Below, piece by piece: positions 2,400 through 63,133 of a DNA stretch of 64,000 nt. Position 1 is the first letter of the stretch. The number at the start of each line of letters is the position of its first letter. Source of the stretch: Cristatella mucedo (taxonomy: Eukaryota; Bryozoa; Phylactolaemata; Cristatellidae); NCBI GenBank assembly GCA_009760855.2, contig WPIO01000002.1, positions 2,137,501 to 2,201,500 on the forward strand, written 5' to 3'. The notes beneath the pieces were generated by a model. It searched no databases. It was not told where the DNA came from and worked only from the letters and a program-made list of their open reading frames with translations. Position numbers and translations under genes: made by a program.

Positions 2400-3237
2400 T
2401 TACCTGCCCGAAATCTATGTGTCATATTCCAAAGTGATCTTTCGTTAAACGACTACATCAGCTCCACAATAAAGTCTGCCTACTTTTAGCTAGATAACCT
2501 TGCTAAAAGTCGTGCATGTTTAGGCGGGAATACCACATCTCAATTGGTCAATGCATTTGCGACATCTCGTCTTGACTTCTGTAACTCACTGCTTGCCTGT
2601 CTACCGACCTGTGCAATCGGGCGCTTACAGCTGCTGCCAAACTGTGCAGCTAGGCTTGTCTGTTGTGAGCGTCGCAGTTGCCACATCACACCACCTCTCT
2701 TCGACCAGCACTAGCTCCAAGTCAAGCTGCGAATCACTTTGAAGGTTTAGTCCCTTTATTCTTTGGCTCCAGCCTAGCTATCAGATCTACTGATCCACCA
2801 AGCTCAGCATCGTACCGCCCACTTTTATGAATTAATCATTTACCTTTACCTTGTACGAACATCGAGTCCTTTGGAGACAGCGCATTTAGTTCGTATGCTC
2901 ACAAAGTCTGGAACTCACTCTTGACTTCCGTCACGACTTCCCCTGACTTGACCACTATTATAAAGAGATTAAAAACGCACCTATTTACGACAGCATTTAG
3001 TAGGTCCATACGATTCGTCCGTTATGTGCTCATGCGTGCTGAAACCGTTGCATGCTGCCACTAACCGCACTTGCATGCTGACCCTGTGCATGTCACCCCT
3101 AACCACGTTATTCATGTTGTTTATCAAGCCTGATACCACTCAAAATTCGGTCGTGTTTCCTTGCAGCAAATGTAAAGCGCTTAGAAAGAGATTCAATTTT
3201 CTGAGGGCGCTTGATCAAGTGTATTATTATTATTATT
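2400..3237 (+). mobile_element. LINE-A copy, RT C-terminal part and 3' UTR
   Basis: A 5'-truncated, frameshifted copy. Around 2,430-2,460 it encodes the post-RT region in pieces; around 2,560-2,600 it reads SRLDFCNSLLA, the conserved block downstream of the RT in L2/CR1-like elements. The 3' UTR carries the GCATGCTGACCCTGTGCATG unit, the hairpin and ATT repeats ending near 3,237. Confidence 0.85.
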
Positions 3238-4857
3238 ACCTGAAGCTCTTGCTCTGCGAGTTGTCATTGGAATGCTGCCATTGTGAGACGCAGTGCTGCC
3301 GTGAACCCACCACTAGTCAATGGTCGAGAAAAATTAGGATAGTTTATTAGCACGGCCGAAAAACAGAACGTGGACCGTTTCAAATATGGACAAACAACAA
3401 GCAACCAACGGGTCCAATATATAGTAGTCCTAAATTATTTCTATTGGCTGAGCAAGCTATACTAATCTTAATACTACTGGCTTCTCTTCGCGATCACGCG
3501 CTGATCAGCCCTGATCATCCGTAGCTTATGTGGCCTTGGCAGAGGCCTATTGGCCTATGTACACGTGATATGCAGCCAATCAGCAGTGGTCTGCAGCTCC
3601 AAAAAAAGTCGGTGTTCTGAGTCACTCAGTGCTGCACTGCTGGTCAAGGTGAACCACCTGGCACAATGACTGTGAATCGGATTCAACCAACGGTCAGCCG
3701 TTAAGGAGCTTTTAAGTACTGCACAAAGGCAGCTGGAAAAGCCTGTTTTCTTCCGGAAAATTATTTCTTTAAGCTCCATCCTTGAGAGGAGACCCAGAAA
3801 ACCGCACAGCACTGCGCCCTGTGTCCCAATAATGAGTATCGAGGTCAACAACTGTCAACGCCCTGACCTCGTCGAACTAGCCGTAACCAACTCTAATGTA
3901 GCCATCAGAGCAGCTCAATTAGGACAGGCTTGTCTTGCGTAATGAACACCAACTCCCATTTTCTCGCAGCCTGATTGCGCCCTCTGGTTTGTCCAGCTAA
4001 AAGTACAGTTCCGGCTAAAAGTAAAGACTAGCGAAGAACTGACAAGAAGGTTTTATTATATGTGGGGGATATTTGCACGATTTCTTCGTCGCAAAAGTCC
4101 GAGATAGTTCGCTCCGACTGTATCTCCAGGAAGTTCTGGACGCAAAGCCTTAGCTTAGAGCCTTAAGCTACCCTTGTTCTGTTCACATTTTCTCGTTAAA
4201 ACTCGCCTGCTCGACATACTACCGACCGGCTAGCAGCTGCGAGACCGAAGACTGCCTAATTCCTTCATGCCGTGCAGAATGTAATCGCTGCGCCAGCCGG
4301 CTGCTACCTTCGACCGCCCCGTAGTGCGCTGCCTTTTCGTGTAACGCCTACCCTACTACGATAATTCATCTCGTGCTCGTTGCTTCTTCACTCTATTCCT
4401 ATCATGAAAATATCGCCGAGCTCACTGACCGTGTTACAGAAGAGTTCCAGTTTACAGCGATTCAGTGAACTCAGTACATGAAAAGGACGCTCTCTCCTTG
4501 CCTGGATGCGGCTGGCATCGCTGCACTGTCTTGGACCATCTAAGGTCACATGCAGCCAGTCTCAGGTGCATAGGTGCATAGAGCTCCCCAGCCCACTGCA
4601 AACTGACCTCGCTGTGGTCCACGGGGATTTTGACGCGACCAAACGGCCGCTGCCGCCCCGTGGAATTTTGCTCACAGGCAAAAGTAACAAGCTGGCACAA
4701 TCTTTACAGAGAAGTAGCAAAAGTCTGGGAGATGACGACCAATCGTGTTGGTACCGCATAACCTTCGGGCAGGAAGCTCGCAGGGCTCTTACAGTGTGCT
4801 GAGGCTCTGAGTGCACTACGAAACTCTCCAGCCTTTTACCCCCTGAGATTTGTGACA
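3238..4857. other. Intergenic, no supported gene
   Basis: Only short open frames without domains are present. No RNA gene or repeat from the families described here was recognised. Confidence 0.4.
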
Positions 4858-15324: not shown

Positions 15325-16381
15325 GTATGTGTATCTCCGTCAGTAACTCCACAAAGTCCTTAAGACCATGTGGGTGTTACGCAGGAGAGTTTTGTATAGC
15401 GCACTCACAGCCTAAGCGGCTTTCGGTACGCATTCGGTAGCCAACAGACTTCGTCTCACGCAACAAAGAGAAAGTGGGAAGCATAGCAGAGTCAGGAGAG
15501 CAGTTGAGGTAGTGAGTAGCATAGAAGTAGCAGTTCAGGACCGCTGAAAAAGATGTGCCATAGTCAGCAGTTGGAGAGTAGATGTCGTTGCGTAAGAATT
15601 GTGGAAGCGAGTTCCACAGTCTAGGACCTGCAGAGCTAAAGCTTCTGTCGCCAACGGTCTTTAAGCGGAGGAATGGGACAGCTAATTTATTGTCCACACA
15701 GGACCTGAGGGCGCGAACAGGCTGAAACTGATGCAGCAGTTCAGCTAGGTACGAAGGAGCCAAGCCGCAGCAGGCCTTGTGGGTCAGCGTAAGAACTTTG
15801 CTCTGTATCCTTTGTTCAACCGGCAACCATCCTAGCTCTTTCAGCAGAGGTGACACGTGCTCAAACCGCTGGGACTTGAAGACCAGCCTTGCAGCCATTT
15901 TCATAGTCCGCTGTAGTGGCATAATAGCTTTCTTTGGTAGCCCAGCCAAAAGGGAATTACAATAATCAAGCCGAGACAGAACTAAAGAGCTAGTTAATTT
16001 TTTTACAAGCCACTGTGGGAGACAGCTTCTAATCTTGGATAGGGATCGGATGTAATGGCTAGCTGTAGAGGCAGTCTTCTGAATGAAGCTTTTGAAATTG
16101 AGGCAGCTGTCGAACACGAAACCTAGATTACGAGCACGTGGTGAAGGTCGCACAATAGCATCACCTATTAGAGCAGCAAAGCCTTTTAATCCAGCCACAC
16201 GCTTAGGGTGTCCTATGAGAAGCAGTTCGGTTTTATCGTCATTTAATTTCAGGAAGTTTTCCGACATCCAGGATCGAATATCGGCAAGGCAAGCATTCAG
16301 TTTCTCAGTTGCTGCAGCAGATTCCGACGGTTTAAATGACAAATACAACTGAGTATCGTCAGCATAGAAGTACTTTATCTT
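15325..16381 (-). mobile_element. LINE-B copy with intact partial RT ORF
   Basis: A minus-strand frame open from about 16,381 down to 15,377 starts inside the RT at YFYADDTQLYLSF (catalytic YADD). It continues LKLNDDKTELLLIG, SRLDYCNSLLAGLPK, LGWLPVEQRI, LAPSYLAELL and VGDRSFSSAGPRLWNSLP, all in family order. The 3' UTR ends CTTTGTGGAGTTACAGACG with a short ATACAT-type tail at about 15,325. It is 5'-truncated at the catalytic site. The uninterrupted frame suggests a recent insertion. It sits inside the foldback array. L2/CR1-like clade is inferred from the DYCNSLL block. Confidence 0.88.
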
Positions 16382-16476
16382 GGCCCAGTAACTTTCCAGT
16401 GATCTGCGATGGACCCTAGTGGATTGCCGTATTTACCCGGGCCATTGCCGTCTGTAAATAAATCCTAGCTGTACAA

Positions 16477-22880: not shown

Positions 22881-25414
22881 CAGCATACACGTACAAACAC
22901 ATACACATATACACACTGGAGGCAACATGTACATGCTTTCGCTCGAAGACGTTAACTCAATGCAGGGCTTTTACCTTTTGGTGTGATATAGATGTTTGGA
23001 TATGCATTCCTTTGAAGGGAAATCGTCGGCTTTGTAATCAACATAAATTTCTTGGTGTACCGAAGGCGACGTGAGTCGACATTAAATTCATTTGACGTTG
23101 AACTCAAACGCCGGGGAAGTCGAGGTTGTTCCGGATCGATGATAGTTTAGCTTGTGCGCACTTTTGCATGGTGGGCAACTGATATCATCATGTGGTGAAT
23201 GGCAGCGGATATGTTTGTAGTGCTTGGATGGTTTTATGACGGTGCCGTTCGAAGTTAGCCGGCAGCAGGTCCTGCTATTGATTCTCCCACGGATGGGCTG
23301 GGTGTAGTATTGGTTTGGAGGCTGCCTTTTTTTGTAGCTGTTATATAGTGTTTTGCACGTTTCAGCGCCCTAGCTCATGTCAGAACACGTAAGAAGTAAG
23401 CTCGCAGTCTGCTCGGCTTCGAAACTCGCGAGATACCATGAACTATAGCAACTGCTGTGTTACCTGGCTGCACCTAGTCGGTGCGTAGCTGTGCCAGGAA
23501 GGCTGAAAACTCACCAGCTTTAGCTGCTGTGTTCTGCTGGCATGACTATAGTTCCGAGCTTAATTGCTGGTAATCCAGTGTTCATGAAGAATGTGAGCAC
23601 ATCTTCGGGCATTTGTCTTAAGCTGTTTTTTGGGCCCTCCAGAAATTGATCTTTCGATCTGCCACAGCATGTCAGACCTTGCCTTCTTTTATACATTCAT
23701 TCCGTTGTCAAAAGGAAAAATGCATGCTCGTGAATGTATTCGCTGTGGAAAAGTGTAATAAATTTGCCTCGTCATAAATGCACCGTGAACCGGACTGTTT
23801 CGTTTTGCACCGTAGACGGAAGTGAACCATTTACTCCTTCAGGCAGTAGAATTACCCACCTTCGTATGCAAGCCGTTTGGTTTATGTGTGGAACCTGCTG
23901 AAACGTAGGAATGAGATGTCTGCACAATTATTATGGCTTAGAGGTTATTTTCGGTGCTTTAAGTATAATTAGTAGGAGCCGGTTAGGTCTTCCTCTGTGG
24001 CTAGACGGCATAAAAACCCCTACTGATGTTCTAGTTAGTCAGCTGTGCTTTAGGTTTTCGAGAGCTGGGCGCTATAGCTGGTGCTGTGCACTCGCGCCTC
24101 TCTGTGGCTTTGAATCAGACTGCTCTAAGCTATGGACATTGACTCGTTGTATGCTAATGTATTGGCTTTCTTAATTGCTATCTCATTCTGTCATCGTCGG
24201 CATGCATTCGCGGGTATTGCTGTTGTTTTAGCGACTCGTTCGCCTTGCTTCGCGGCGCCATCTTCCCCGGTATTTGTCAGGCGTTAGACCAAGCTTCGTT
24301 GCAAGCGCTGCGTTCTTGGCCCAAGGACCTTAGTGCAGGAGCGGTTTGCAGAAGCCCGCTCGTTTGCGACGACACTGTTTTTTAGAACGCCGACGGACTG
24401 GCAGCCATCTTGTCCGGGATCACGCTTGCTTCGCTGCCTGTGCTCTACTTTTTCACGTTTCTGTACTACACGGACGCCGGCTCGACCTTCTTTGTTCTGC
24501 TGACACTGCTGCTGCACCTCGATGAGCTGGACGTCATGTCCTCCATGAGTGGCCTGATTGCTGTCGTGTTCCGGCAGACGAACATCGTCTGGGTGTTCTT
24601 CGTGGCTGTGCTCGCCGCTCGCCGCGTCCTCGTTCGGCAGATGCTCGCCCGCAACGCGGCGCTGTCACCGGCGACGCTCGGCTTGGTAGACATCGGCCAT
24701 CACCTGGCCCGTGGTCGCTGGCTCGCTTTCGTGGCCGAGGCCGCCGCCCACTGCTGGAGCTACGCCATCGTCGGCGCGTGGTTCTTGGCGTTCGTCTACT
24801 ACAATGGCGGCGTTGTCGTGGGCGACCGGAGCCATCACGTGGCAGTAGCGCACGTCGCTCAGCTGGGATACTTCGTCTCGTTTGCCACCCTCGTGGGACT
24901 GCCCCACTTTGTCAACCCGTCCAAGCTGCTCGGCTTCGTGCGAGTGTGCTGGCATCAGCTCCACGTCGTGCTGCTCTCGGGTGGCTTCCTGACGCTGGGC
25001 GTGTGGCTGTTCACGTACACGCATCCGTACCTGTTGGCCGACAATCGGCACTACACGTTCTACGTTTGGTCGAGGATCATCCACGCCACCTGGTGGATGA
25101 AGTTTGCCCTAGTGCCTGCTTACGTCTATGGGTTCTGGACTCTTCACGACAGTGTGTCGCACCTTGACGTTGTTTGGAGGTTCCTGTACTTACTGTGTGC
25201 CGTCGTGTCCACCGTTCCGCAGAGGCTGCTGGAGTTCAGATACTTCATTCTGCCGTACTTGATCCTGCGTCTGTACATTCAGCGGCCGTCCACGCGGGTC
25301 GTCTTGCTGGAGCTTCTGCTACACTGCGTCGCGAACGCCGTTACAGTGTATCTATTCATTGAGAGGCCGTTTCACTGGCAAGGAAACAGCAAGCCGCAAC
25401 GGTTTATGTGGTGA
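18956..25414 (+). CDS. ALG10: Dol-P-Glc:Glc(2)Man(9)GlcNAc(2)-PP-Dol alpha-1,2-glucosyltransferase (ALG10/DIE2)
   Basis: Three exons, all joined in phase 0: 18,956-19,129 (58 codons, Kozak ACCATGG, donor GTTCGT), 19,799-19,993 (65 codons, acceptor TTTCAG, donor GTGCGT) and 24,386-25,414 (342 codons plus TGA, acceptor TTTTAG). The 465-aa product is close to the human length of 473. Family signatures are present: PYMDEIFHITQAQSYC in exon 1 after one hydrophobic segment; WDPMITTLPGLYL opening exon 2; FRQTNIVWVFF, NGGVVVGDRSHH, LLADNRHYTFYVW and RLLEFRYFILPYLI in exon 3; and the C-terminal RFMW. ALG10 is a multi-pass ER membrane enzyme that adds the terminal glucose to the lipid-linked oligosaccharide before transfer by oligosaccharyltransferase. 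Intron 2 (4.4 kb) holds LINE-B, LINE-C, SINE-1 and a CA repeat. Exon 3 is visibly richer in GC than exons 1 and 2. No poly(A) signal is obvious downstream. Confidence 0.95.
19130..19798. other. ALG10 intron 1
   Basis: 669-bp intron without recognised repeats or RNA genes. It ends in a TTTGAATGTTTCAG acceptor. Confidence 0.8.
20700..21320 (+). mobile_element. LINE-B copy in ALG10 intron 2
   Basis: 5'-truncated. It reads ELRWLPVDQQIQSKIL, LAPPYLAELLHQFQPLRALR and VGDRSFCSSGPRVWN, then frameshifts. Its 3' UTR (GCTATACAAAACTC, AACACCCACAAAGTC, GGAGTTACAGACGGA) matches the copies at 15,325 and 43,255. Confidence 0.85.
21465..22020 (-). mobile_element. LINE-C 3' end in ALG10 intron 2
   Basis: The minus-strand coding remnant reads LKSLGDRVVSSANQMAG, a relative of the LINE-A block KSFGDRAFSSYAPTAWNS. 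The 3' UTR holds AACCAAGGGTTAGTGACATG and ends near 21,465 with ATTATTATTAT on the other side. A second copy lies at 39,415-40,280. Confidence 0.65.
22112..22262 (+). mobile_element. SINE-1 copy in ALG10 intron 2
   Basis: A box TGGCCCAGTGG, then GGTGCTCGCCCC, B-box block CGGGCTCGAGCCC, then the hairpin tail TGAAGCGCCTGAATAGAG and an AT-rich end. Confidence 0.85.
22620..22920. repeat. CA-rich tract with (CA)n core
   Basis: Imperfect CA-rich sequence over about 300 bp with a pure (CA)n run at about 22,846-22,876, in ALG10 intron 2. Confidence 0.85.
22921..24385. other. 3' part of ALG10 intron 2, no feature seen
   Basis: No recognised repeat, RNA gene or additional exon. It becomes GC-richer over the last 200 bp before the exon 3 acceptor. 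Confidence 0.5.
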
Positions 25415-26648: not shown

Positions 26649-26656
26649 CTCTAGTG
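26649..26656. repeat. Target-site duplication of the hAT MITE, left copy
   Basis: CTCTAGTG, repeated exactly at 26,974-26,981 immediately after the right terminal repeat. Confidence 0.9.
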
Positions 26657-26973
26657 CAGCGGTTTTCAACCTCGTGACCCCTTTGGGGGTCGAGCACACG
26701 AGTCGCCTAAGACCATCAGAAAACACGCATTTCCGATTGTCCTTTCCCATAATTGCAAATTGTTTTGTGATTAATCACTATGCTTCAATTTGTAAAAAAA
26801 TTTAATTTGTTCAATTTGTAACAATGCAAATATATCCTGCATATACATTACAGTTCATTGTAGCAAAATTACAGTTATGAAGTAGCAACGAAAATAATTG
26901 TATGGTTGGGGATCACCACAACATGAGGAACTGTATTAAAGGGTCGTGGCATGAAGAAGGTTGAGAACCATGG
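26657..26973. mobile_element. SPIN-like non-autonomous hAT element (MITE), 317 bp
   Basis: An exact 8-bp target duplication CTCTAGTG flanks the element (26,649-26,656 and 26,974-26,981), the hallmark of hAT insertion. The 5' end CAGCGGTTTTCAACC and 3' end GGTTGAGAACCATGG form imperfect terminal inverted repeats. Internal blocks match my memory of the SPIN (SPACE INVADERS) consensus: GACCCCTTTGGGGGTCGA, GTCGCCTAAGACCATC, GAAGTAGCAACGAAAATAAT, GGGGATCACCACAACATGAG and GGAACTGTATTAAAGGGTCG. SPIN is known for horizontal transfer among tetrapods and some invertebrates. There is no transposase ORF, so it needs an autonomous partner. Short internal losses near both ends are visible. The identification is from recall and should be aligned. 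Confidence 0.9.
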
Positions 26974-26981
26974 CTCTAGTG

Positions 26982-27334: not shown

Positions 27335-27580
27335 ACTTCACAAAGCCACAAAGAATGTGGACGTTACGCAGGACCGTTTTGTGTATCTAGCGGTTAAGGT
27401 GCTCAAGGTCTGACTGAGGTCGTGGGCTCGAGCCCCGAGGCATATGTGAAGCGCCTGAATAGAAATTAAGTTCTCTTGGGGCGTAGTATATGTCGTTGCG
27501 TAAGAATTGTGGACGTGAAATCCGCAATCCTACAGAGCAAAAGCTTCCGTCGCCAACGGTCTTTAAGCGCACGTTGTAAT
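27335..27580 (-). mobile_element. LINE-B fragment interrupted by a SINE-1 piece
   Basis: The LINE-B 3' UTR (CAACTTCACAAAG to TTACGCAGGACCGTTTTGTG, about 27,335-27,386) and a LINE-B coding remnant (GTCGTTGCGTAAGAATTGTG, then AGCAAAAGCTTCCGTCGCCA, about 27,490-27,575) lie on the minus strand. They are separated by a plus-strand SINE-1 segment at about 27,389-27,485. Confidence 0.75.
27389..27485 (+). mobile_element. SINE-1, partial, nested in LINE-B
   Basis: Reads TAGCGGTTAAGGTGCTCA, GAGGTCGTGGGCTCGAGCC, then TGAAGCGCCTGAATAGAA and TTCTCTTGGGGCG. The 5' end and the A/T tail are missing. Confidence 0.8.
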
Positions 27581-27705: not shown

Positions 27706-28985
27706 ATAATAATAATAATAATATTGCACTTGATAAAGCGCCCTCAGAGAACTTAATCTCTTTCTAGGCGCTTTACATTTGCTGCAAAGTGATACGCAAT
27801 AGAATAGTAAGTAAAATCATGCTTGAAAAACAAACAAAATGAATAACATGGTTAGGGGTTACGTGCACTGGGTCAGCATGCAAATGTGGTTAGTGGCAGC
27901 ATGAACAGTGTCAGCACGCATAAGCACATCGAGGACGAATCACAAGGACCCACTAAATGCTGTCCTAAATAGGTATGTTTTTAAGTTTCTTTTAAATGTG
28001 GTCAGGTCAGGGGATGTTCTGATGCAGGTCGGGAGGGAGTTCCAGGCTGTGGGAGCATACGAGCTAAATGCACGGTCTCCAAAGGATTTAAGGTTTGTAC
28101 GAGGTATTTCTAGACTGTTGGATTCCGAAAAGCGAGTGGTACGATGCTTGGCCTGATGGGGTAGTATATCTGAGAGATAGGCTGGAGCCAAAGAATGAAG
28201 AGACCTAAAAGTGAGCGACAAAACCTTGAAGTCAATCCGTTGCTTGACTGGTAACCAGTGCAGGTCGGCGAGAAGTGGAGTAATGTGGCAACTGCGACGC
28301 TCTCACGACAGACAAGCCTAGCTGCAGAGTTTTGCACCAGCTGCAATCGCCTGATCGCACATGCTGGTAGGCCAGTAAGCAGTGAGTTGCAGAAGTCGAG
28401 ACGAGATGTCACGAATGCATGGACCAACTTGGACGTGGTATCCTTATCTAAACAAGCCCTAATTTTAGCAATGTTATGAAGCTGAAAATAGGCTGATTTG
28501 ACTGTGGAGCTGATGTGGTCGTCTAACGAGAGGTCGCTTTGGAATATGACACCTAGATTTCAAGCTGATGCACCTGGAGATATGCTGGCAGAGCCAATTT
28601 TGAAAGTCAGCCTTTCCAATTTCTGAATAACACTGGGTTTGCCCATAACTAGTAAGTTAGTTTTATCATCGTTTAGTTTTAGAAAATTTGCTGCCATCCA
28701 TGATCGGATGTCATCAATGCATGCAGCAAGTGAGTTGAGAGAATTTGAGGTGCTCGAAGGCTGGGAGGGATCAAAGCAAAGGTACAACTGAGTGTCATCC
28801 GCATAGAAGTGAAAGCCTAGATTGTGCTTGGCAATCACATCAGCGAGAGGGAGAGTATAAACGGTGAAAAGGACCGGACCTAGCACGGAGCCCTGAGGTA
28901 CTCCATATTTTAGAGGTACTTCAGATGATCTTTGTCCATTCACGTCAATACTCTGGAGTCTCCCACTGAGATAGGACCTGAACCA
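27706..28985 (-). mobile_element. LINE-A copy, RT to 3' end
   Basis: Minus-strand pieces in order: VPQGSVLGPVLF and HFYADDTQLYLCF (RT catalytic YADD, about 28,800-28,880), NFLKLNDDKTNLLVMGK, SRLDFCNSLLTGLP, LVQNSAARLV, AYLSDILPHQAKH and SFGDRAFSSYAPTAWNS. The 3' UTR and hairpin follow, ending in the (AAT)n tail at 27,706. A few frameshifts and one stop break the ORF. It is 5'-truncated within the RT. Confidence 0.9.
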
Positions 28986-29109
28986 CTGCAGAGCAGTGCC
29001 AGTGATGCCCAGGCGAGATCAATCGTTGTTAATGCGCATTAAAAGACATTTTTTTTCTGTGGGTGCCTAAGCATAACTTCATATTGAGTCTTCATTAATA
29101 TGCCAAGGT

Positions 29110-30800
29110 ATGCTCGCTTCAATCGAGGAATTATTATCTTCCGTTGCACTGGAAATTTTTAGAGGCTCCTTTCAAAAAGGCTGTATTCAGGCACCTGCCC
29201 GAGGAAGCAACACTAAACCAAGTGAACTTGGGCAACTTCCGCCCAGTCTCCCTTCAACAGTTTCTATCAGACAGTGGAAAGAGTCGTGGCAGCCCAGCCG
29301 AACTCATATATTGAAGCTTTAAACCTTGCTAGTAAGTTCCAGTCTCCTTTCAGAGCTTACCATTCCACAGAGTAAGTATTGCTTCGGGTGCATAACGACC
29401 TACATAAGAATGCAGACATGGATAGAGTTTATCTGCTTGTTTTGCTCGATCTTTCGGCAGTTGTTGACACTACCAATCAACAAGTCCATCTTGAGCGCTT
29501 CTCATCTCGCCTGGGCATCTCTCGCACTGCATTGAAATGGTTCAGTTCCTATCTCAGCGGGAAACTCCAGAGTATTGATGTGAATGGACAAAGATCATCC
29601 GAGCAACCTCGGAAATATAGGGTACCTCAAGCCTTTGTGCTTGGTTCTGTTATTTTCCTCGGTATAACATTTCCCTCTTGCCGATGTGATTGCCAAGAAC
29701 AATCTAGGCTTTCACTTCTATGCAGTTGACACTCGACCGCACCTTGGCCTTTATCCCTCCCAGCCCTCCAGCACGTCGAATTCTCTCAACGCCTATGCTG
29801 CATATTTTGATGACATCCGCATATGGGTGGTACCAAACTTTCTTGAATTTAATGAAAATAAAACCAACTAACTTGCTATCGGCAAAACAAGTGTGATTCA
29901 GAAATCAGAAAGGTTAGAAATGCTCACGATCGGCTCTGCCAGCATATCTCCTGTTGAATCCGCACGAAATGTAGGTGTCGTGTTCCAAAGTGACCTTTCA
30001 TTAGACGACTACATCAACTCCACAGTCAAGTCTTTCAGCTACGTAACATGGCTAAAATTCGGGCTTGCTTAGACAGGAATACTACATCCAAATTGGTCCA
30101 TGCATTTGTGACATCCCGTCTTGACTTCTGTAACTCACTGCTTGCTGGTCCGCCGACCTGTGCTATCGAGCGCTTACAGCTGGTGCAAAACACTGCAGCT
30201 AGGCTTCGCTTTCGTGAGCGTCACAGTTGCTACATCACACAACTACTTCTCGCCGACCTGCACTGGCTTCCAGTCAAGCAACGCATCAAATTCAAGGTTT
30301 GTCACTCACTTTTAAGTCCCTTCATTCTCTGGCTCCAGTCTACCTATCAGATCTACGCCCCCACCAGGGTAAGCATCATTCCACACGCATGTCGGAATCT
30401 AATTGTTTACCTATACCTCGTAAAAACCTCAAATCCTTTTGAGACATTGCCTTGAGTTCGTATGCTCCCAAAGCCTGAGACTCACTGCCAACTTGCATCA
30501 CGACATCTTTTGACTTTACCTCATTTAAAAAGAAACTAAACACGCATCCCTATTAAAGCAGTTAGTGGGTCCCCGCGATTCGTCGTTTATATGTTTATGC
30601 GTGCTGACAATATGCATGCTGCTACTAACCATACTTGCATGCTGACCCTGTGCTTGTTACCCCTAAATATAATTTTTCCTTGTTGCTTATTATGCGTGCT
30701 ACCAATAACCATGCGATCGTGTTTCCGTTACAGCCAATGTAAAGTGCCTAGAAATAGATTGAGTTGTCTGACGGCGCTATATGAAGTGCATTATTATTAA
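29110..30800 (+). mobile_element. LINE-A copy, RT to 3' end, head-to-head with the previous copy
   Basis: Plus-strand pieces: VNLGNFRPVSLLQQF (about 29,215), LVLLDLSAVVDTTNQ (normally lvLLDlSaAFDTiDH), a YFYAVDTRPHLGL relic of the YADD box, SRLDFCNSLLAG, LVQNTAARL and LHWLPVKQRIKFKV. The 3' UTR and hairpin end with a short ATTATTA tail near 30,800. Frameshifts and stops are more numerous than in the neighbouring minus-strand copy. Confidence 0.88.
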
Positions 30801-31527: not shown

Positions 31528-34448
<2,921 letters not shown>

Positions 34449-40697: not shown

Positions 40698-42920
40698 TCA
40701 CAATTTCTTGACGAGCACGAGCACCTTTTTCTGACGCGAGCCCTGGATGTTGACCTTGACTGCCATCTTCTCCCTGCCGTGAATGGCTATGTGAGACGGG
40801 TTCTCGAACCGGTCGATGGGCGACTGCACGGATATGACGTGCTGCATCTCGCCGAACGGCGACAGGTGCAGGATTCGGTGGTTCATCTCGTCCGACACGT
40901 ACACGTGGCCGCGGCTGTCGACGCACACGCCGCTCGGACTGCAGAACGTGTCCTCGTACACCCAGTGCGTGCGACTCTCCGAGATGGCCTTGACCGACAG
41001 CGAGGCGGGCTCGGTGACGAGCACGTGCCCGTACACGTGATTGACGGCCACGTGCAGTGGGTCGACGACGAGCGGCGGCCCGCCGTCGGTCGCGCGCCGG
41101 ATGCTGCGCATCAGGTGGCCGTCCGACAGCCGGTAGACGGCGATGTGGTCGCCTTCGGCGAGCAGCACGCGATCGTCGACCGTGGCCAGGTAGCCGAAGT
41201 TGTCGCGCACGCGGTTCGACCAGCGCTTGGCCAGCTCGCCGCCGGCGGCGTGCGCGTAGCAGCGTAGCTTCCACTTCTCGCCCGAGCGGCGCACGACGAG
41301 CAGGCGGCCGTCGCCGGCCACCGCCACGTCGTACACCTCGCCGTCCTCGAGCATAGTCTTCACCATCATGAGGCCGCCCGTGTAGGCGACGTACATGTTG
41401 CCGTTTCGGTCGAACGCCATGCGATAGGCGTGACAGTCGATGCCGAACGCCTTGCGCCACGTCGACGGCGTCAGGTCGTCGTCCTCGCCGCTGCCGCCGG
41501 CCGCCCCGAAGGCCTCGGCACGCGGCGACACGATCGCGTCGTCGTAGCCGGCGGCGGCGCCGCCGCCGTCCGGCTGCTGCGACGACGAGTGGAAGACGTT
41601 GAACAGCGGGCCGCACAGGTTCTCGTAGTCGGCCAGCGTCGGCTGCTCGACGTAGACATCGGGCGGCCGGTCCTCGGTCACGTCGGCAGCCATGAGCGAC
41701 ACGAGCTGACTCTCGACGAGCATCTTGACGTCGAGCAGCGATGACGACGCAAAAGCAGCAGCGCCGCCAGCCGACGACGACGACGACGACGAGGCGAGCA
41801 GACTGCACAGCCGCTCGGCAAAGCTGTCCAGAGAGGCGCACAGCGTCTGGCAGGCGTCCACGTACGACTCGTAGCGCTTGGCGCACAGCCGGGCGGCGTC
41901 GTCGATGCGGCCCGTCGCCCGCGCGAAGGCGGCGTCGAGGCAGCGCAGCGCCTGAGCCCGCTGACGCTCCAGCTCGTCGCGAGCGTCGCGCAGGCGCACC
42001 CCGGCCGCCGCGTTGGACTCGCCGGCGGCGACGAGCCGGGCGCGCAGCGCCGACGCCTTCTCCTCGACGCGGCGAGCGGCGGCGCGAAAGCGCGTTCGCG
42101 TCTCGTCCGTGCAGCCCTCGAGCGGCATGCAGCGGTGGCGCTCGCAGTGCGACAGCTTGCACAGCAGGCAGGCGAGCCGTTCGCACTCGGTGCAGTACAG
42201 CTGCACACACTCCTTCGGGTGGCGCGCGCACGGCTTCGACTCGTCGGCCCACGCAGCCGCCAGAAGGCCAGACGACTGGCCGCCGCCGCCCCCGTCGGCG
42301 TGGGCACCTTCGGCACAAGCGCCGGAGGCGGCGCAAGCGCCGGAGGCGGCCTCCCCGATGCAAGTTCCGGGGGCGGTGCCGCCTCGCTGCCTGCAGTCGC
42401 CGATGGGAACGAGCCGGTCTCGCTGCAGACGTCGGTTTCGGCGATGCCGGGCCACGCAGACGTCGCACAGGTTGTCGGCGCACTCGATGCAGCGCACGCT
42501 GGCTGCTGCCACCCTGCCCTCGGCGCTGCACGGGTCGCACGGCGTGTCGGAGCCGAGCAGGCCGCCGGCGGGAGCGTCGCTGCCGCCGTCGCCGGCAGCG
42601 CAGTTGGCCGCGGCCGCAGCTGCCTTGCGCTGCATGGCGTCGAACAGCGAGTTGAGCAGGTGATTGGCAGGCAGCTTCTCGGCGCCGCGAATGCCGCCCG
42701 GCGTTGGCAGCTGAGTCTTCTGTCGACACGTCGGGCACGGCAGCTGGTCCTTGTAGTCGTTCGAGGCGACGTACTGTTGCAGACATTTCTTGCATATGCT
42801 GTGCTGGCAGCTGAGCATCAGCGGCGCGCTCAGCCGATCGATGCAGATGGGGCAGAGGAAGACGTGGTGCACCTCGCTGTCATCCTCACTGCCGTCACGG
42901 CCGCCGGTGAGCGAATCCAT
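40698..42920 (-). CDS. TRIM-NHL-type protein (RING, two B-boxes, coiled coil, NHL propeller)
   Basis: Single open exon of 740 codons. The ATG at 42,920 (context GGCGAATGG) is the first ATG of the frame; upstream in-frame codons start only with TTG. The RING finger is C3HC4 with C23, C26, C38, H40, C43, C46, C62 and C65. B-box 1 spans about 128-165 (CDPC...RCIECADNLCDVC...H) and B-box 2 about 230-262 (CARHPKECVQLYCTEC...H). A long helical, Arg/Ala-rich region at about 270-390 fits the coiled coil. The C-terminal 240 residues hold beta-propeller repeats, clearest at SPSGVCVDSRGHVYVSDEMN. The expected role is a cytoplasmic E3 ubiquitin ligase and/or RNA-binding regulator, as in TRIM2/3/32/71 and Brat. 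The propeller, not SPRY, decides the class. No filamin domain is seen. Linkers rich in Ala, Gly and Ser include a repeated SGACA. Absence of introns could reflect retroposition or clade-specific intron loss. Confidence 0.9.
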   Translation of the reverse strand: MDSLTGGRDGSEDDSEVHHVFLCPICIDRLSAPLMLSCQHSICKKCLQQYVASNDYKDQLPCPTCRQKTQLPTPGGIRGAEKLPANHLLNSLFDAMQRKAAAAAANCAAGDGGSDAPAGGLLGSDTPCDPCSAEGRVAAASVRCIECADNLCDVCVARHRRNRRLQRDRLVPIGDCRQRGGTAPGTCIGEAASGACAASGACAEGAHADGGGGGQSSGLLAAAWADESKPCARHPKECVQLYCTECERLACLLCKLSHCERHRCMPLEGCTDETRTRFRAAARRVEEKASALRARLVAAGESNAAAGVRLRDARDELERQRAQALRCLDAAFARATGRIDDAARLCAKRYESYVDACQTLCASLDSFAERLCSLLASSSSSSSAGGAAAFASSSLLDVKMLVESQLVSLMAADVTEDRPPDVYVEQPTLADYENLCGPLFNVFHSSSQQPDGGGAAAGYDDAIVSPRAEAFGAAGGSGEDDDLTPSTWRKAFGIDCHAYRMAFDRNGNMYVAYTGGLMMVKTMLEDGEVYDVAVAGDGRLLVVRRSGEKWKLRCYAHAAGGELAKRWSNRVRDNFGYLATVDDRVLLAEGDHIAVYRLSDGHLMRSIRRATDGGPPLVVDPLHVAVNHVYGHVLVTEPASLSVKAISESRTHWVYEDTFCSPSGVCVDSRGHVYVSDEMNHRILHLSPFGEMQHVISVQSPIDRFENPSHIAIHGREKMAVKVNIQGSRQKKVLVLVKKL

Positions 42921-43250
42921 TCGCCTATGAGCACCAGCGCGTGTGCGATCAGGCTCAGGCAATCAGGGTCAGGAGCCATGCAGCCCACGGCGGCGGCAGC
43001 AGCCGCCCACGCAGAGGCAACTCGCACGTCTCTCGACTCCTCGCGGTCGAGCATTTGGTCACAGCAGCAGCAGTGAACAGCAGCCTACGCTTCCAGTGAC
43101 ACCGCCGGCCGCTCATGCCACAAAGTAAGGCAAGCTGTCGCCAGGCTAATGCACCGAGCAAAGCCACGACTGTCGCTATCTAGGTATACACCGAGCAGCT
43201 CGGGGAGCACTGCTCTCCTCATTCGGGTGCTCGGTGCAACGCAGGTCCAG
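42921..43250. other. 5' flank of the TRIM-NHL gene
   Basis: GC-rich; likely promoter and 5' UTR, no clear TATA box. It contains an 11-bp inverted repeat TGCACCGAGCA (43,150-43,160) and complement (43,228-43,238). Confidence 0.4.

Positions 43251-51602: not shown

Positions 51603-63133
<11,531 letters not shown>

Follow-up and report, generated by a model that had tools for sequence, protein, structure and literature searches.

An extinct SPIN-like hAT miniature element and its coding relatives in an invertebrate genome

SPIN is a well-known example of a transposon that has crossed between distant animals. The cited passage of PMC5857283 names galago, murine rodents, opossum, tenrec and vespertilionid bats as its hosts, and SPIN is also recorded in Rhodnius in an excerpt of PMC11614815. 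In the relevant section of PMC3499496, SPIN is assigned to the Buster family, and the target-site duplication of another element, TcBuster, is given the consensus nnnTAnnn. Among invertebrates, the snail Biomphalaria glabrata is described as carrying about 1,000 copies of a hAT element with significant identity to SPIN, and the passage concerned characterizes the DNA transposons of this genome as not recent, with no intact transposases detected among them (PMC5440852). If one more invertebrate with decayed coding copies joined the known hosts, the SPIN family tree would gain a branch, and the direction and timing of SPIN movement could become easier to decide, with no mechanism changed. Here we describe an element within a stretch of 64,000 nucleotides (the whole of which is referred to as the window), together with its relatives in the genome from which the window was taken.

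The window copy, its genomic copies and their target sites

The element spans positions 26657 to 26973 and is bounded exactly by identical 8-bp copies of CTCTAGTG, at 26649 to 26656 and 26974 to 26981, in agreement with the exact target duplication reported in a preliminary description of this DNA. The features are as follows:

26649 to 26656, + strand: left target-site duplication CTCTAGTG, 8 bp with a TA centre (window sequence)
26657 to 26973, + strand: SPIN-like hAT MITE of 317 bp, type B deletion form (genome copies, consensus and alignment)
26657 to 26672, + strand: left terminal inverted repeat CAGCGGTTTTCAACCT (consensus CAGCGGTTCTCAACCT)
26657 to 26734, + strand: homology to the left end of the coding element (positions 1 to 92 of the L049 element)
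26749 to 26970, + strand: homology to the right end of the coding element (positions 3070 to 3285 of the L049 element)
26958 to 26973, - strand: right terminal inverted repeat, reading AGGTTGAGAACCATGG on the + strand (consensus AGGTTGAGAACCACTG)
26974 to 26981, + strand: right target-site duplication CTCTAGTG, 8 bp (window sequence)

The terminal inverted repeats of the window copy are imperfect, with 12 of 16 positions paired (CAGCGGTTTTCAACCT versus AGGTTGAGAACCATGG), and those of the consensus are nearly perfect (15 of 16, the mismatch being at position 4).

The genome (572,011,866 bases in 688 contigs) was searched with the window copy, and 40 of 1810 first-look candidates were scored. 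The count of genomic copies that the preliminary description had called for came, among these scored candidates, to at least 40 with the window's included, distributed over 27 contigs and grouped from 47 aligned pieces. Because the sequence recurs at 40 places among the scored candidates, the element and its duplication are not a product of chance. The main matches of the 39 other copies are 71 to 88% identical to the window copy, the 40 copies being ranked by likeness to it and thus not a random sample of the family. A majority consensus of 321 bp was built from the 22 copies that were full length by our chosen cut, and the K2P distance of these copies to it averages 0.092 (range, 0.066 to 0.130). 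As the copies lie about 8 to 9% from their consensus, the burst of amplification was an old one, and the window element is an old, extinct miniature copy. As single-stranded DNA, the first 116 consensus bases can form two long perfect or near-perfect hairpins (-38.8 kcal/mol, z -9.6, with none of 200 shuffles folding as well), and their counterpart in the window (about 26657 to 26750) is worn.

Duplications were surveyed in the 34 of 40 copies in which both ends could be placed, the other six being dropped. All eight bases are duplicated in 7 of the 34 copies, at least seven in 21 and at least six in 26. When right flanks were dealt among the copies in 1000 shuffled rounds, eight of eight bases agreed in a mean of 0.4 and a maximum of 4 of the 34 copies, and at least six agreed in a mean of 6.4 and a maximum of 13 of 34, the latter control standing above near-zero because the copies share a TA centre. 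A chance origin of the duplications is ruled out by these counts. Weak duplications (8 of 34, under six of eight bases) or unplaced ends (6) account for 14 of the 40 copies. Within the left duplications of the 26 copies that agree at six or more bases, a T occupies position 4 in 22 cases and an A occupies position 5 in 21; the TA-centred duplications thus follow the nnnTAnnn rule of the Buster group.

Elsewhere in the window, the gene features include a large exon of an ALG10-type glucosyltransferase at 24386 to 25414 (+; PF04922, E 7e-84) and, on the - strand, the main exon of an alpha-tubulin at 31528 to 32754 (Pfam and PDB), whose first coding exon was placed by eye at about 33880 to 34061 in the frame 33312 to 34061. 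Also on the - strand are one long TRIM-NHL-like frame at 40698 to 42962, with a RING finger and one NHL repeat above cut-off and a B-box below it, and an RCC1 repeat at 59721 to 60155 whose frame also covers a 26-copy GCA run at 59775 to 59853. Broken reverse transcriptase fragments, L2/CR1-like by eye, occur at 15377 to 16432 (-; RVT_1 match below cut-off), 27940 to 29018 (-) and 29376 to 30455 (+). A tRNA-like repeat (...GACTGAGGTCGTGGGCTCGAGCCCC...) lies at about 27380 to 27480 (+), and a relative of it, recognized by eye, is nested in the SPIN-like copy L015. Matches to ALKBH8_N and Tox-GHH2 fell below their cut-offs and were rejected, and an Rfam scan of the window gave no match.

Miniature subfamilies and coding relatives

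Some copies hold more interior sequence than the miniature. The longer relatives include an element of 3288 bp (L049), which has both miniature ends and the flanks GTTTAAGC and GATTAAGC, and one of 2956 bp (L051), which has both miniature ends and is without a clear duplication. The consensus of one group of miniatures, type A (321 bp), unites the outer 111 bp or so on the left of the coding element with roughly 209 bp from its right end; type B (consensus of 326 bp), the group of the window copy, has a different deletion junction. The miniature thus derives by internal deletion from a 3.0- to 3.3-kb element, and the non-autonomous status implied by the MITE label of the preliminary description is supported. 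Junction motifs assigned 15 of 40 copies to type A (two of these calls, the longer copies L023 and L026, being based on weak matches), 8 to type B and 17 to neither. Mean divergence (p) from the respective consensus is 0.086 for 12 type A copies and 0.082 for 5 type B copies.

The window copy differs from the type B consensus at 24 of 301 compared sites. It has lost about 6 and about 9 bases near its left end and 9 bases near 26844, and it carries one additional stretch of about 16 bases near 26790 to 26806. The three losses are absent from four other full-length aligned type B copies, and for this reason they appear to be private to the window copy. The earlier proposal of a locally amplified subfamily recognizable by its internal losses is thus partly upheld: the losses are real and a subfamily exists, but the subfamily is defined by its deletion junction, which was called in 8 of 40 copies, and the small losses that we checked look private.

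A genome search with 1801 bases of L049, in which all 14 candidates were scored, returned 16 matches, most of them short pieces of the right non-coding end. Matches reaching into the coding part were long on four contigs (C111, C133, C658 and C676), shorter on C5 and a fragment on C332. Six copies (L049, L051, L079, L080, L081 and L050) are 78 to 86% identical to each other in pairwise comparison. When three protein pieces of the six-copy consensus were used as probes against these same six copies, coding pieces were found in five of them, and all five (L049, L051, L079, L080 and L081) contain frame changes or stop codons; L050 gave no protein match to the three consensus probes. The C-terminal piece of the six-copy consensus matches the hAT dimerization domain Dimer_Tnp_hAT (PF05699) just above its cut-off (22.1 versus 21.4 bits), the match in single broken copies being below threshold (14.0 bits), and the N-terminal piece has a sub-threshold zinc-finger match. 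Two PDB searches listed no transposase among their matches. The dimerization domain in the coding relatives and the 8-bp duplications bear out the initial assignment to the hAT class.

Likeness to SPIN and the nature of the host

The terminal repeat of SPIN is CAGYGGTTCTCAACC, and the consensus ends CAGCGGTTCTCAACCT and AGGTTGAGAACCACTG agree with it. Likeness to SPIN was assessed through mouse DNA printed in papers, which was located by words of the consensus. A stretch of mouse genomic text in an excerpt of PMC8376875 aligns with the consensus at 92 of 125 columns and shares its terminal base; the score is 118, whereas 1000 shuffles reached no more than 44 and the remainder of the window, with both strands considered, reached 33. 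For the window copy itself, the alignment with this mouse text has 75 identities in 100 columns (score 96). Because the text had been located by its last 15 bases, the alignment was repeated without them, and the consensus still matched at 77 of 109 columns (score 90, versus 32 as the highest of 1000 shuffles and 33 for the rest of the window) and the window copy at 63 of 87 (score 74) (PMC8376875, same excerpt). In addition, primer R2 of the mouse Ate1 locus, as printed in a section of PMC2767504, holds no search term and matches the consensus at 18 of 20 bases, with a score of 32 that exceeds those of 1000 shuffles (at most 24) and of the rest of the window (at most 20).

Three other primers were given little weight because search terms make up most of them. 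Primer R1 of the Ate1 locus matches the terminal repeat at 18 of 19 bases and was itself the searched word (PMC2767504, primer text), and the matching Kcnq1ot1 (PMC6221546) and Drc1 (PMC8522639) primers, taken from excerpts of those papers, consist mostly of 15-base search terms; outside its search term, the Drc1 primer agrees at 2 of 5 bases by hand count. Six internal words of the consensus were sought in printed sequences, and none was found in mouse DNA. One internal word matched sequence in a paper on a bacterial plasmid centromere (PMC9499535) and is unrelated, and a short-motif match in PMC3418201 is a Vps18 primer that we took to be a coincidental mRNA match.

On these grounds, the SPIN-like character claimed from the first inspection is supported through the mouse matches (77 of 109 columns, and 18 of 20 bases of primer R2), and membership in SPIN proper is an inference from them. 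Such ends also belong to URR1, a rodent hAT repeat, and the mouse match could bear that name; a literature search for URR1 in connection with SPIN found no paper. The mouse matches, together with the terminal repeat of SPIN, suggest that the mouse repeat may be SPIN and not a sister family.

The host was characterized from a mitochondrial contig of 21,008 bp (C688). Its COX1 frame contains 15 TGA, 7 AGA and 4 AGG codons, and AGR codons fall at known serine sites. With AGR read as serine and TGA present in the COX1 frame, the code is an invertebrate mitochondrial one, which bears out the invertebrate host suspected at the outset. A vertebrate host, for which GC-rich exons and dinucleotide repeats had brought a lamprey into consideration, is rejected by this code; the animal is probably a lophotrochozoan. 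Ten protein genes, named by eye (COX1 also by Pfam), lie on one strand of this contig, on which cox2, nad2 and atp8 were not located. The trnP and trnT genes are on the opposite strand, as is the large rRNA gene (Rfam, run on L061 and L062 only). Nemertean mitochondria, as described in part of PMC3368773, likewise have trnP and trnT on the opposite strand, and the block nad6-cob-trnS-trnT-nad4L-nad4-trnH-nad5 is common to both; unlike in nemerteans, the large rRNA here is on the opposite strand, trnF follows nad5, and atp6 and cox1 are placed elsewhere. The contig also contains recurring units of about 2.1 kb with part of nad3, trnS and trnG (L061, L062 and L083) and a 238-bp repeat present in both orientations.

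Origin of the element and comparison with known systems

As mouse-like non-coding sequence sits in an invertebrate, horizontal transfer is the best explanation, and we consider it very likely that the window element is an extinct MITE derived from a SPIN-like hAT of Buster type, which this invertebrate lineage acquired through such transfer. In the history that we propose, a coding element would have made the transposase, which excised copies by way of their terminal repeats and reinserted them at nnnTAnnn sites, and forms reduced by deletion to about 110 bp on the left and about 210 bp on the right would have been mobilized in trans. The coding copies would then have broken and the copies decayed by about 8 to 9%. 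After its insertion at CTCTAGTG, the window copy would have acquired its substitutions, several small deletions and the additional stretch of about 16 bases. The copies read here presumably ceased to be active long ago.

The strongest competitor, which we nonetheless regard as rather improbable, is a different Buster- or Charlie-type hAT family that is related to SPIN and resembles it in terminal repeat and subterminal blocks. Several hAT families have terminal repeats near CAGYGGTTCTCAAC, and the mouse text, 74% identical over 125 columns and given no name in its paper, cannot alone separate sister families. However, the likeness to mouse extends beyond the ends, to consensus positions 55 to 75 (primer R2) and 203 to 305 (the text without its search term). 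Far less probable is that no transfer took place and that a very old hAT family was inherited vertically ever since protostomes and mammals shared an ancestor. The copies are indeed well decayed (about 8 to 9%) and the coding copies read are broken, yet non-coding sequence is no longer expected to be alignable to mouse once neutral decay has gone on for more than 500 million years, and the copies' own divergence puts the burst long after the animal lineages split. Contamination of the assembly or chance similarity can be dismissed almost entirely: the 40 copies are spread over 27 contigs of up to 24.8 Mb, which rules out contamination, 26 of 34 carry their own duplication of at least six of eight bases, and copy L015 holds a nested tRNA-like repeat that resembles, by eye, one in the window.

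For the horizontally acquired, SPIN-like element that we favor, exact-pattern scans of IMG/VR and GTDB genomes, in which near own-genome records may be excluded, found no carrier or relative, and a transposase scan of IMG/VR and BLAST searches of phages and plasmids gave no match. It is conceivable, though we hold it to be unlikely, that SPIN-like elements were present in invertebrates before or alongside their spread in land vertebrates, with lineages such as this one serving as a reservoir; jointly with this reading, and just as tentatively, the coding relics may represent a lineage that is basal to the vertebrate SPINs or stands apart from them. SPIN-like elements are already known from invertebrates, one lophotrochozoan included, and since a SPIN-like hAT has been reported in Biomphalaria (PMC5440852, in the passage cited above), the present genome probably adds a host to an element of a known kind.

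Among the described systems, TcBuster of Tribolium shares the 8-bp nnnTAnnn duplication and is placed in the same group as SPIN in the cited section of PMC3499496; unlike the element described here, TcBuster is active, and the two were compared by their target duplications. The SPIN-like hAT of Biomphalaria glabrata resembles ours in having an invertebrate host, in the snail's case a lophotrochozoan, and differs in the host itself, the snail element being likened by description. With SPIN and its non-autonomous SPIN_NA forms, the element shares the hAT class, 8-bp TA-centred duplications and a probable place in the Buster group; SPIN is reported from very distant animals, and pieces of the mouse genome match the present consensus. 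The element differs from SPIN in its host genome, its 8 to 9% diverged copies and its own deletion junctions, types A and B.
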